Positions 1-24,656 of a stretch of DNA of 24,656 nt are shown piece after piece. The DNA comes from an uncultured Panacagrimonas sp. (lineage in GTDB: Bacteria > Pseudomonadota > Gammaproteobacteria > Nevskiales > Nevskiaceae), in contig CAMLNE010000013.1 of NCBI GenBank assembly GCA_946481265.1, positions 1-24,656 of the forward strand, read 5' to 3'. Positions within the stretch are counted from its first letter, which is position 1; every line of letters begins with the position of its first letter. The notes under the pieces are model-generated. The model saw only the letters and a list, made by a program, of their open reading frames with translations, was not told the DNA's origin and did not search any database. The position numbers were made by a program, and so were the translations under genes.

Positions 1-951
1 GCGGACGGCGATTTCGCCAGGCACTTCGCGCAGGTGGAGGACAATTTCCTGCGCATCGCGGCCGCCATCAGCCGCCATCAGCCGGTGCACATCAACTACG
101 GACGACAGGCCGCTTCCCTGCTCACCCGGCTCGAGGCGGCCGGTGCGCGCCGCGACCGCGTGCGCATCTGGAACGTGGAATCCGATGACGTCTGGGCGCG
201 CGATCACGGGCCGATCACGGTGCGTCGCGGCGACGGACTGGTGCACCTGGACTTCGGCTTCAACGGCTGGGGCGGCAAGTTCGAATCCGCACGTGACGAT
301 GCGCTGACCCGCCGGCTCGCCGAGCTGGGCGCCTGGACGGCACCGGTGGAGACCCAGGACTTCATCCTCGAAGGCGGCGCCATCGAGGTGGACGGCCAGG
401 GCAGCCTGCTGACCACCGAGCGCTGCCTGCTCGCGCCGACGCGCAATCCGCAGCTGGACAAGCCTGGCATCGAGGCCTTCCTGAAGCCGCGGCTGGGCGT
501 GGCCCGGGTGCTGTGGCTGCGCCACGGCGACCTGATCGGCGACGACACCGACGGCCACATCGACACCATCGCGCGCTTCTGCGGTGCGCACACGATCGCC
601 TACCAGGCCTGCGCCGACCGTGCGGATCCGCACTACGAGGACCTCGCGGCGATGCAGGAGGAGCTGCGTGCACTGCGCACGCGCGAAGGCAGGCCGTACC
701 GCCTGGTGCCCCTGCCCCTGCCCTCGGCCATGCACGACGAGCATGGCCAGCGCCTGCCGGCGGGCTACGCCAATTTCCTGATCGTCAACGGCGCGGTGCT
801 CGTGCCGGTGTACGGCGCGCCGCAGGACGAGGCCGCGCTCGCCGCGCTGCGCCCCTGCTTCCCGGATCGCGAGGTCATCGGCATCGACTGCCGCTGGCTG
901 ATCCGGCAGTACGGCAGCCTGCACTGCGTGACGATGCAGATTCCCGCCTAG
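1..951 (+). CDS. aguA: Agmatine deiminase, 5'-truncated by the window edge
   Basis: The reading frame is open from base 1 and ends at TAG 949-951, giving 316 residues without the true N-terminus. Agmatine deiminase hydrolyses agmatine to N-carbamoylputrescine and ammonia in the cytoplasm, on the route from arginine to putrescine. Visible family motifs are the VWARDHGP segment, the EGGAIEVDG segment, DDTDGHID with the catalytic Asp/His region, and the C-terminal GSLHC with the catalytic Cys (codon at 925). These belong to the guanidino-group-modifying (PAD_porph) fold. Compared with the copy that begins at 24564, about 21 N-terminal residues are missing, so the full protein would be about 337 residues, normal for the family. 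No aguB (N-carbamoylputrescine amidase) is visible. The gene converges on radA. The product call is secure; only the start is unknown. Confidence 0.93.
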   Translation, partial: ADGDFARHFAQVEDNFLRIAAAISRHQPVHINYGRQAASLLTRLEAAGARRDRVRIWNVESDDVWARDHGPITVRRGDGLVHLDFGFNGWGGKFESARDDALTRRLAELGAWTAPVETQDFILEGGAIEVDGQGSLLTTERCLLAPTRNPQLDKPGIEAFLKPRLGVARVLWLRHGDLIGDDTDGHIDTIARFCGAHTIAYQACADRADPHYEDLAAMQEELRALRTREGRPYRLVPLPLPSAMHDEHGQRLPAGYANFLIVNGAVLVPVYGAPQDEAALAALRPCFPDREVIGIDCRWLIRQYGSLHCVTMQIPA

Positions 952-8824: not shown

Positions 8825-10351
8825 ATGAGATCCAGATCCGGTCGCAGCAAACCCCTGCCCGAAGGCGACTTCGAGGCGCGGATCGTCGACCTGGCAGAAG
8901 ACGGCCGCGGCGTGGCCCGCATCGAGGGCAAGGTCTGCTTCATCCACGGCGCCCTGCCCGGCGAAACCGTGAAGTTCCGGTATACGCGCAGGCGTCGCGA
9001 TGCCGACGAGGGCGAGACCGTGCAGGTGCTCGAACCCTCGCCGGACCGCGTCGATCCGCCCTGCGCGCACTTCGGCCTGTGCGGCGGCTGCTCGCTGCAG
9101 CACCTCGCGCCGGCGGCGCAGATCGCCCTCAAGCAGCGGCAACTCGTCGAGGCCCTGCACCGCATCGGCAAGGTCGAGGCGGGGACCATGGCGCCGCCGA
9201 TCACCGGACCGAGCCTGGGCTACCGCCGCCGCGCCCGCCTGGGCGTGAAATACGTGGACAAGCGCGGCACGACGCTGGTCGGATTCCGCGAGCGTTCGAG
9301 TCCCTTTCTCGCGGTGCTCGAAACCTGCGCGGTGCTGGATCCGCGGGTGGGCCGGAAGCTGCGCGCAATCGGCGATTGCGTCGCCGAGCTGTCGATCCGC
9401 CGCGACCTGCCGCAGATCGAAATCGCCTGCGCCGACACGGTGCCTGCGCAGCAGTGGGTGCGGGAGGCGCAGGACGAACCCGCGTCCGCACCCGCCTCGC
9501 TGCGCTCAGACACCGTGACGCGGGTTCGCGCCGACACGGTGCCTGCGCAGCAGTGGGTGCGGGAGGCGCAGGACGAACCCGCGTCCGCACCCGCCTCGCT
9601 GCGCTCGGACACCGTGCCACCGGCCCATGCCAGTCCGGTTGCACTGGTGCTGCGCGTGATGCGGCCGCCGACCGAGGCCGATCTCGCGCGGCTCGATCAA
9701 CTGGCCCGCGACCACGACTTCGAGCTCTACCTGCAGAGTGGCGGCCCCAGCACGGTGGCGCCCATGCGCCCGCCCGCTCCCCGGCTCGACTACTCGCCGG
9801 ACGGCTCGGCCGACCGCCTGCAGTTCCAGCCCACCGACTTCATCCAGATCAACGCCGCGGTCAGCCAGCAGGCCGTGCGCCAGGCGCTGGACTGGCTGCA
9901 GCCGCAAAGCGGCGAGGCGATACTCGAACTGTTCTGCGGCCTGGGCAATTTCTCGATCCCGCTGGCGCGCCGCGGCGCGTGCGTCACCGCGGTCGAAGGC
10001 GACGCCGGCCTGGTCGCCCGCGCACGTGCGAATGCGCAGCGGCTGGGCCTGGACATCGACTTCCACGCCGCCGACCTGTTCCAGCCGCGGGCCGACGCCC
10101 CCTGGCTGCAGGCGCCATTCGATACCGTGCTGCTCGACCCGCCGCGGGCGGGCGCCGAGGCGGTCATGCCCGTCATCGGCGCGCGCAGGCCCGGGCGGAT
10201 CCTCTACATCTCCTGTCACCCGGGGACCCTGGCGCGCGACGCCGGTCTGCTGGTCCACGGCCACGGGTACCGCCTCGTGCGTGCGGGCGTCATGGACATG
10301 TTTCCCCACACGACGCATGTCGAGTCGATGGCCCTGTTCGAACGTGCGTAA
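8825..10351 (+). CDS. rlmD: 23S rRNA (uracil-1939-C5) methyltransferase RlmD with in-frame insertion
   Basis: RlmD (RumA) methylates U1939 of 23S rRNA using SAM. An N-terminal TRAM domain is followed by the iron-sulfur ligands C80, C86, C89 and C168, a SAM motif LELFCGLGNFS (C371), the DPPRAG motif, and the catalytic Cys C464 in YISCHPGTLARD. At 508 residues it is about 70 longer than the E. coli enzyme (433). The surplus maps between C168 and C464: about residues 203-268 hold two near-identical 29-residue repeats 33 residues apart. The flanks (LPQIEIACAD and PVALVLRVMRP) read as continuous family sequence. The frame is preserved, so a functional enzyme with a surface loop is likely. The frame is open upstream to 8705, but that would overlap the exonuclease gene and lacks family sequence; ATG 8825 is preferred. 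Confidence 0.93.
   Translation: MRSRSGRSKPLPEGDFEARIVDLAEDGRGVARIEGKVCFIHGALPGETVKFRYTRRRRDADEGETVQVLEPSPDRVDPPCAHFGLCGGCSLQHLAPAAQIALKQRQLVEALHRIGKVEAGTMAPPITGPSLGYRRRARLGVKYVDKRGTTLVGFRERSSPFLAVLETCAVLDPRVGRKLRAIGDCVAELSIRRDLPQIEIACADTVPAQQWVREAQDEPASAPASLRSDTVTRVRADTVPAQQWVREAQDEPASAPASLRSDTVPPAHASPVALVLRVMRPPTEADLARLDQLARDHDFELYLQSGGPSTVAPMRPPAPRLDYSPDGSADRLQFQPTDFIQINAAVSQQAVRQALDWLQPQSGEAILELFCGLGNFSIPLARRGACVTAVEGDAGLVARARANAQRLGLDIDFHAADLFQPRADAPWLQAPFDTVLLDPPRAGAEAVMPVIGARRPGRILYISCHPGTLARDAGLLVHGHGYRLVRAGVMDMFPHTTHVESMALFERA
9429..9616. repeat. Tandem palindromic insertion inside rlmD
   Basis: Bases 9429-9517 and 9528-9616 are an 89-base direct repeat with one difference (A9508 against G9607), period 99 bases, so the frame is kept. 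Each copy is itself a hairpin. In copy 1, 9436-9442 pairs with 9511-9517 (CACGGTG/CACCGTG), 9446-9452 with 9499-9505, and 9456-9463 with 9486-9493 (GGGTGCGG/CCGCACCC), with a 22-base apical loop. The linker 9518-9528 (ACGCGGGTTCG) is the exact reverse complement of 9475-9485 within the unit. Confidence 0.9.
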
Positions 10352-13851: not shown

Positions 13852-13960
13852 GCGCCGTCGGGTCGGCCTGGGGAAAATCCGAACCGGCGGCTGCGCCCGG
13901 CGTCCCATGCGACGGCGGGACCCGGAATCTCCGGGGCATCCACCCGTACGCCCCGCCCCC

Positions 13961-13996
13961 GCGCCCTCGCGCCCTCGCGCCCTCGCGCCCTCGCGC
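13961..13996. repeat. GCGCCCTC tandem repeat, four and a half units
   Basis: Four perfect 8-base units run from 13961 to 13992, followed by a partial GCGC. It lies in the 463-base gene-free stretch 13833-14295 and no open reading frame of interest crosses it. A unit length of 8 could change by slippage. Confidence 0.85.
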
Positions 13997-14032: not shown

Positions 14033-14286
14033 CTAGCCCGCATTTCTCACAGGGGGATCGAGCGATGGCCGTGCGTCGAGGACGTGCAGCGCGCCGGGAC
14101 GGAGCGAACCCCATAGTGGTTCTATGGGGTGAGTGAGTCCCAAGCGATGCGCGCCGCAGACAGGCCAGCGCCGATCCAGCCGGAGAATCCAGGCGACACT
14201 CTGTTTCCGGCGCGCAGCCCAAACATCGCACTCAGATCAGTAGATTGAAGCGGATGCTCCGGCGACCTGTGAGAAATGCGGGCTAG
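14033..14286. mobile_element. MITE-like element with 17-bp perfect inverted ends
   Basis: The ends CCCGCATTTCTCACAGG (14037-14053) and its exact reverse complement (14266-14282) bound 246 bases, with CTAG directly outside both ends (14033-14036, 14283-14286) as a possible 4-bp target duplication. Because CTAG is self-complementary, the ends could also be read as 21-bp inverted repeats. The interior has no transposase frame but holds a strong hairpin. The ends resemble those I associate with IS1380-family elements; I could not verify this. It lies just upstream of the His-rich gene and the metal-efflux operon. Confidence 0.72.
14096..14141. repeat. Hairpin inside the MITE-like element
   Basis: ACCCCATAG (14108-14116), loop TGGTT, and CTATGGGGT (14122-14130) form a perfect 9-bp stem. 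GGGAC (14096-14100) and GTCCC (14137-14141) extend it after an internal loop. It may act in transposition or as an RNA structure. Confidence 0.7.
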
Positions 14287-24563: not shown

Positions 24564-24656
24564 ATGACCGATTTCCTTCCCCCCGAGTGGGCACCGCAGT
24601 CCGCGGTGATGCTGACCTGGCCGCGCGCCGACGGCGATTTCGCCCAGCACTTTGCG
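24564..24656 (+). CDS. aguA: Agmatine deiminase N-terminus, cut by the window end
   Basis: The first 31 codons begin at ATG 24564 and read MTDFLPPEWAPQSAVMLTWP then RADGDFAQHFA. The EWxPQSAVxLxWP pattern is the standard start of agmatine deiminase. The frame is open to the last base. Codons 22-31 match the first ten codons of the window (ADGDFARHFA) with one amino-acid difference, so this is either a second copy of the gene truncated at the left edge or a related segment. No Shine-Dalgarno is evident in the 22 bases after the upstream terminator. Confidence 0.85.
   Translation, partial: MTDFLPPEWAPQSAVMLTWPRADGDFAQHFA

Follow-up and report, generated by a model that had tools for sequence, protein, structure and literature searches.

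The tandem repeat inside rlmD of an uncultured Panacagrimonas sp. is very probably a mobile element, a non-autonomous palindrome of the REP/REPIN-like kind that survives in frame within a conserved gene. Rickettsia provides the best-known palindromic insertions that keep the reading frame, and an earlier note on the window (the whole stretch of 24,656 nucleotides analysed here) had proposed a mobile palindromic element of that type. This reading was borne out, since the element behaves like a Rickettsia palindromic element (RPE) or a REPIN: it is dispersed among related genomes, occurs in frame in unrelated conserved genes and is present or absent at the same sites in close relatives.

Tandem Repeats Finder placed the repeat of the window at 9429-9616, with a period of 99, 1.9 copies and 98% matches. 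Comparison of the two units showed that 88 of the first 89 bases are identical, the sole mismatch among them being position 80, and that the full 99-base units also differ at positions 90, 92, 94, 97 and 98. The final ten bases of copy 2 are not copied from copy 1. The host gene was identified as rlmD by NF009639 (511.6 bits against a cut-off of 458) and it also matches E. coli RumA (1uwv). The features of the locus are as follows.

8825-10351, plus strand: rlmD, 23S rRNA (uracil1939-C5)-methyltransferase, 508 codons including the insert, start picked by eye
9429-9527, plus strand: element unit 1, 33 codons
9528-9626, plus strand: element unit 2, 33 codons, whose second module does not retain its outer arm (differences at 9617-9626)
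9426-9433, plus strand: outer arm of module A in unit 1, CCTGCGCC, with identical letters in the empty allele of genome G031
9434-9465, plus strand: core of module A in unit 1, consisting of GACACGGTG, the hairpin CTGC-GCA-GCAG (9444-9454), GGGTGCGG and GA
9466-9473, plus strand: inner side of the outer stem of module A in unit 1, GGCGCAGG
9475-9484, minus strand: inner side of the outer stem of module B in unit 1, 10 bp with 9519-9528
9486-9519, minus strand: core of module B in unit 1, inverted
9519-9528, minus strand: outer arm of module B in unit 1, the 'linker'
9520-9532, no strand assigned: 13-nt link between the tandem units, equal in length to the links at loci L125 and L327/L328
9533-9562, plus strand: core of module A in unit 2
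9585-9618, minus strand: core of module B in unit 2, inverted

The tandem 89-base duplication described in the earlier note is hence confirmed, and its remark that the linker reverse-complements a stretch of the unit is equally correct: 9519-9528 (CGCGGGTTCG) pairs with 9475-9484 (CGAACCCGCG) and constitutes the outer arm of module B, the second module of unit 1. The estimate of about 65 residues added before the catalytic half was right in place (query residues 203-271 in the match to 1uwv) and slightly off in size, as the two units add exactly 66 residues (2 x 33 codons) after the N-terminal part of RlmD and ahead of its catalytic half. Each copy was said to form a segmented hairpin, and the fold is indeed strong: the 84 bases at 9434-9517 reach -54.3 kcal/mol compared to -36.1 (sd 3.0) for shuffled sequences (z -6.1), and none of 200 shuffles was as good. 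It is better described as a pair of modules in inverted order, both having an outer stem and an inner one, given that modules are also found alone. The note took the near-identity of the copies to suggest recent duplication, but a simple recent event is not required, because the 13-nt tandem geometry recurs at L125 and L327/L328 and the last ten bases of copy 2 differ.

The module, a smaller unit than the 99-base repeat, emerged when loci were aligned. It reads as a variable outer stem, GACACGGYG, a variable hairpin, GGGTGCGGGA and the outer stem again. As one strand, its ~50 nt fold into an outer stem of ~8 bp followed by tandem G-A pairs (GA/GA) and the inner parts, where three fixed pairs (CAC/GTG) adjoin an unpaired CGG, and the short hairpin inside usually ends in a GNA triloop. 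The set analysed comprised 171 distinct modules from 141 sources (the window, 60 loci and 80 regions). Conservation of the blocks is by construction, since the collecting expression demands them, while the stems are free of that demand. GA/GA was present in 157 of the 171 modules (107 different arm pairs), and the outer arms of these 157 were paired over 6.05 bp compared to 1.83 when shuffled (maximum of 500 shuffles: 2.17); the eight positions outside the blocks were 91.2% paired, against 53.1% with shuffled partners (maximum 56.8%). The first outer pair was C-G in 103 of 107 distinct arm pairs, and in 79 of 101 distinct inners a stem of 2 bp or more was closed by a GNA triloop, compared to a mean of 5.3 and a maximum of 13 after shuffling. 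DNA favours loops of the GNA and GNNA types. Many inners contain d(GCGAAGC), which a title in the reference list of PMC10527192 calls an extraordinarily thermostable DNA mini-hairpin.

The outer and inner stems of the module covary. Two gapless subsets, A2 (38 modules with 13-base inners) and A3 (40 modules with 11-base inners), had 96.3% and 95.2% of cells paired, compared to 81.5% and 73.2% after shuffling, and two-sided changes numbered 79 against 23.4 and 107 against 37.0. The covariation score was 0.385 in A2 (shuffled 0.131) and 0.507 in A3 (shuffled 0.134), and none of 500 shuffles scored as high; shuffle tests are inflated by the kinship of the copies, and the slid-structure controls, which retain that kinship, gave at most 63.5% paired in both subsets. 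The number of A3 pairs with two-sided changes is weak by count alone, 66 of 500 shuffles reaching it. Template switching in DNA replication is described as another source of stem covariation (PMC8794818), and the covariation is therefore not proof of a fold in use. The invariant columns of A2 and A3 are GACACGG.G and GGGTGCGG. A kink-turn, in which tandem G-A pairs beside a 3-nt bulge look similar, was considered and rejected; GA/GA is replaced by GT/AC in 4 and by GC/GC in 4 of the 171 modules, so that a kink is not required in all copies.

Outside the window, the modules form 117 distinct groups, 75 of which are singles and 29 are '+-' pairs, with no '-+' pair. The remaining groups are 5 '++', 4 '--', 2 '---', 1 '+--' and 1 '+-+-+', and the order '-' before '+' does appear within tandem arrays. 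The gap in '+-' pairs is 21-24 or 53-58 nt, and a frequent compound unit of ~100 bp or more thus consists of two inverted modules. The two pairs of the window are joined by 13 nt, as are the tandem pairs at L327 and L328 (genome G058), and at L125 (G032) a further outer end is 13 nt off. Same-strand tandem arrays with periods of 101-137 were seen in several genomes. At G033:C411, G041:C4, G058:C9 and G058:C12, tandem arrays of modules have regular periods of ~101-132 bp, and the copy number there could vary among strains.

The 58 genomes searched, which may be incomplete or mixed, represent the family of a Polycyclovorans MAG (G001, from L001), Stenotrophobium (G002) included. The window probably belongs to the same family, judging from its nearest named RlmD relatives, which are Panacagrimonas and other Nevskiaceae. 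The exact pattern GACACGGYGN{9,24}GGGTGCGGGAG was found in 176 copies in 25 of the 58 genomes, with at most 20 per genome, and the reversed-pattern control gave 1 copy; blastn (E<=1e-4) matched the 99-base unit in 21 of the 58, its copies per genome being lower bounds because scoring covered no more than 15 candidates in each. The unit is consequently dispersed and not unique to the window. The exact pattern, which divergent forms would escape, was absent from all 369 genomes sampled evenly across the class (G001 included), and the element is, as far as sampled, restricted to the family of the window's nearest relatives. Plasmids and phages gave no match at E<=1e-5, and three viral contigs hold a 17-base piece and no module. 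One IMG/VR contig, L224, carries the full module pattern at 10049-10077.

In-frame copies were found at the DNA level in eight other conserved genes, supported by Pfam, NCBIfam or PDB matches to the parts before and after the element.

purL (G022, L198): in-frame module
metH (G056, L122): in-frame module
htpG (G055, L322): in-frame module
enoyl-CoA hydratase gene, ech (G053, L314): in-frame module
UbiH-like hydroxylase gene (G037, L299): three tandem copies of ~43 residues each
queG (G037, L300): in-frame module
pyruvate carboxylase gene (G054, L320): in-frame module
NUDIX-MBL protein gene (G037, L297): module between two domains, on a basis other than PDB comparison

These eight genes, out of 117 groups, are a floor, because the Pfam scan covered 60 module-spanning frames and 10 neighbours and mostly left out frames below 200 residues. 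At the protein level the element peptide also occurs in a molybdopterin oxidoreductase (P0122), in ImuA (P0124, over the cut-off), in P0123, which has a weak match to DNA polymerase IV and is taken for ImuB, and in the glucose/sorbosone dehydrogenase-like P0126, the start of which maps to L298 (G037) and which the Pfam scan of frames had missed. These repair proteins, ImuA and the putative ImuB, recall the bias reported in PMC3733652. At L111, L118, L211, L310 and L316 the module precedes the conserved domain, and these were discarded as genic copies. The resemblance to RPEs suggested from the single rlmD case is strengthened by the eight further genes, in a comparison of described features.

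Copies were also noted at riboswitches. At L112 (1463-1660, G058:C20) one lies in the terminal loop of a match to the yybP-ykoY manganese riboswitch (E 8.9e-11; at 43.9 bits it falls slightly short of the gathering score, 45), and at L125 (1501-1870, G032:C43) the element immediately precedes two glycine riboswitch aptamer matches.

The coexistence of filled and empty alleles among relatives indicates that the element moves. Four comparisons at the DNA level (purL, htpG, ech and a repeat in G040) gave a net gain of 93-99 bp, and no target duplication was present in any of them. The purL site is filled in G022 and empty in eight close relatives, which are 93-97% identical before the site and 91-97% after it; 9 bases are replaced by 105, ~9 native bases being lost, and half of the replacement is not recognisable as module. 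This is the single pattern copy in G022, and the eight relatives hold none; in G025, one of the eight, the second piece contains a TAG. Among 51 genomes with a match, htpG is filled in G055 only (gain 93 bp). The ech site is filled in G053 and empty in G054 and G057, going from 8 bases (G057) to 104 with ~8 lost. In G040 a module pair splits a MITE-like repeat, the site going from 5 to 104 bases (net 99 bp) with both outer arms inside the insert; an empty copy of the repeat in the same genome reads CCCAAG-CCATT-GGCCCC. The insert edges of P0006, P0122, P0123 and P0124 show short repeats (ACA or AC, C), at the protein level only, which could be target duplications, and in all four CCTGCG, back-translated from protein, stands at both edges. 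Guide/target pairing of the IS605 kind was prompted by the rlmD left arm, which also occurs in the empty allele of G031; it is not claimed, because the outer arms are non-native in ech, purL and the G040 repeat, and in htpG only partly so.

Other repeats were noted in the window. A 254-bp MITE-like repeat at 14033-14286 has perfect 21-bp terminal inverted repeats (CTAGCCCGCATTTCTCACAGG) and matches in 9 of the 58 family genomes, with 10 in G040. The octamer CGCCCTCG is repeated 5.4 times at 13954-13996, and the ends of the window (1-30 and 24627-24656) are 87% alike over 30 bases.

The absence of target duplication in the four cases, the one-strand structure and the inverted doublets together suggest HUH-type chemistry, as described for REPs (PMC8266576, PMC3116915). 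We tentatively propose that the element may move as folded single-stranded DNA that would be cut in trans by an HUH-type or similar enzyme, a step in which our confidence stays somewhat below even. The short edge repeats of the four protein-level inserts speak against it, as does the outcome at the Y1_Tnp loci examined, where no mobilising enzyme was found linked to the modules. The in-frame copies would be remnants that purifying selection leaves from insertions into loops.

An alternative that we consider rather unlikely is that these are REP sequences moved by a host RAYT (TnpA-REP), that is, a REPtron with a changed tag. The inverted doublets and tandem clusters are as reported for REPINs (PMC3116915), the four cases without target duplication agree with it and Y1_Tnp is over the cut-off in 39 of the 58 family genomes. 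However, the invariant columns of A2 and A3 hold no GTAG tag, no module flanks a Y1_Tnp gene at the 50 loci examined of 102 Y1_Tnp matches in the 58 genomes, and a search at E<=1e-3 found no Y1_Tnp match in four carriers (G014, G017, G037 and G042). Thirty Y1 loci with +/-1.5 kb contained no full module, and three of 20 larger Y1 regions had full modules at distances of ~1.5, 5.8 and 6.6 kb. Two one-mismatch matches, in L180 and L189, do not resemble modules. In G024:C490, three dimers follow from ~1.5 kb of a weak Y1 match onward, with TetR-, GNAT- and RibD-like genes beside and between them.

It is improbable that the module is a structured RNA, a processing, stability or regulatory motif selected in transcripts. 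The strong stem covariation would fit such a role, and according to PMC3733652 REPs are believed to be active in RNA as well, but no Rfam family reached its gathering score on the element in the window or in 20 loci; the loci gave only riboswitches beside or around it, and the window gave miRNA models at E 0.97 or worse. Moreover, the module is antisense to the gene in metH and purL, G-T mismatches in the arms (25) are little above A-C (17), and among the loops other than GNA are GACA, GCCA and GTCA, none of which is of the GNRA type.

The protein consequence was addressed with RlmD itself. Of 120 listed relatives the first 32 were aligned, and 30 of these lack the insert, some having 4-6 other residues there; in the relatives examined it is accordingly not ordinary conserved protein sequence. 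P0006 (78% identity) and P0009 (75%) carry one 33-residue unit at exactly the same site where the window has two. In a tree built from insert-free RlmD, the window, P0006 and P0009 fall on three branches, with 3 changes, and the starred branches force 3. The AU test rejects the three carriers as one clade (p 1.85e-5), a group that was defined by the insert before the tree, and likewise P0006 with P0009 (p 3.1e-4). This distribution could stem from recurrent insertion at one spot, from alleles exchanged among species or from numerous exact losses. The AlphaFold2 model of RlmD (33-row alignment) has a mean pLDDT of 76.4, with 367 of 508 residues at 70 or above, and falls below 50 at residues 205-268, as well as at 1-6 and 157-174. 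The insert is most likely a disordered loop according to this prediction, which fits the suggestion of a tolerated loop in the earlier note.

It is very improbable that RlmD retains the insert as a segment useful to its function: the three branches share codon position and frame, but its absence from most of the relatives aligned, the predicted pLDDT below 50 and the reading of the conserved block in another frame in queG all speak against it. Least probable of all is a local minisatellite, a piece of rlmD duplicated by replication slippage, for although the 99-bp units are tandem and near-identical, the empty rlmD alleles read contain nothing from which the unit could derive, and it is present elsewhere, in further genes and regions of 25 genomes; only the doubling may be local.

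The occurrence of this probably mobile, REPIN-like element matters in several respects. REPs in genes of other bacteria have also been described (PMC3733652), and a gammaproteobacterial family now offers an element with a large population of copies, in which filled alleles can be set against empty ones. Its carrier proteins HtpG, PurL, MetH, pyruvate carboxylase, QueG and RlmD have solved homologues. Two questions thereby become testable, the means by which such elements move when no transposase is linked to them and the frequency with which mobile DNA adds new loops to conserved proteins, and the sharp internal-loop signature may serve as bait for enzyme discovery. One may speculate, doubtfully, that a further class of bacterial palindromic mobile DNA is represented here by its first family, recognised by fold and not by sequence (a fixed GACACGGYG/GGGTGCGGGA internal loop, two changeable stems and a stable GNA cap), moved as single-stranded DNA by a non-RAYT enzyme, perhaps across species, and editing proteins, and once a riboswitch loop, through cassettes of ~31-33 codons. 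This speculation is tempered by TGTC on the complementary strand, which leaves a distant tie to CGTC REPs.

Like GTAG REPs, REPINs and BIMEs, the element consists of many short palindromes in inverted doublets of fixed spacing and in tandem clusters, some of them genic, and the 29 '+-' pairs with no '-+' among 117 groups agree with the conserved-spacing doublets of a REPIN. Unlike GTAG REPs, it has no GTAG tag at the hairpin foot, its conserved blocks sit between two variable stems, and no module was found beside a RAYT-type gene at the 50 Y1_Tnp loci examined. The ends of IS200/IS605 elements and derived MITEs form one-strand hairpins and leave no target duplication. The element resembles them in its one-strand hairpins and in the four DNA-level cases, with possible short edge repeats in the four protein-level cases; it differs by having no linked tnpA, and it pairs no flanking target, because in ech, purL and the G040 repeat the outer arms are themselves inserted. 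CGTC REPs, considered with Rickettsia RPE-4 and RPE-6, share the predominance of inverted doublets and the in-frame genic copies, and are likewise not known to have a dedicated transposase (PMC3733652). The element shows no CGTC tag, and its complementary strand reads TGTC beside the outer stem, a listed variant of the CGTC tag (PMC3733652). In the CGTC REPs described there, a single stem of 8-9 bp starts with A-T pairs, the loop has 4-5 bases and there is a CCA tail, whereas the element has two stems and G+C-rich blocks. RPEs, of ~150 bp and with nearly half within reading frames (PMC10969869), are likewise palindromes in frame in unrelated conserved genes, whereas the element is G+C-rich and belongs to another bacterial class. 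Among the open-licence papers listed in capped literature searches, Solimonas REPs included, there was no description of it, and the element represents a new family within a known kind of DNA, unusual in its two-stem anatomy.
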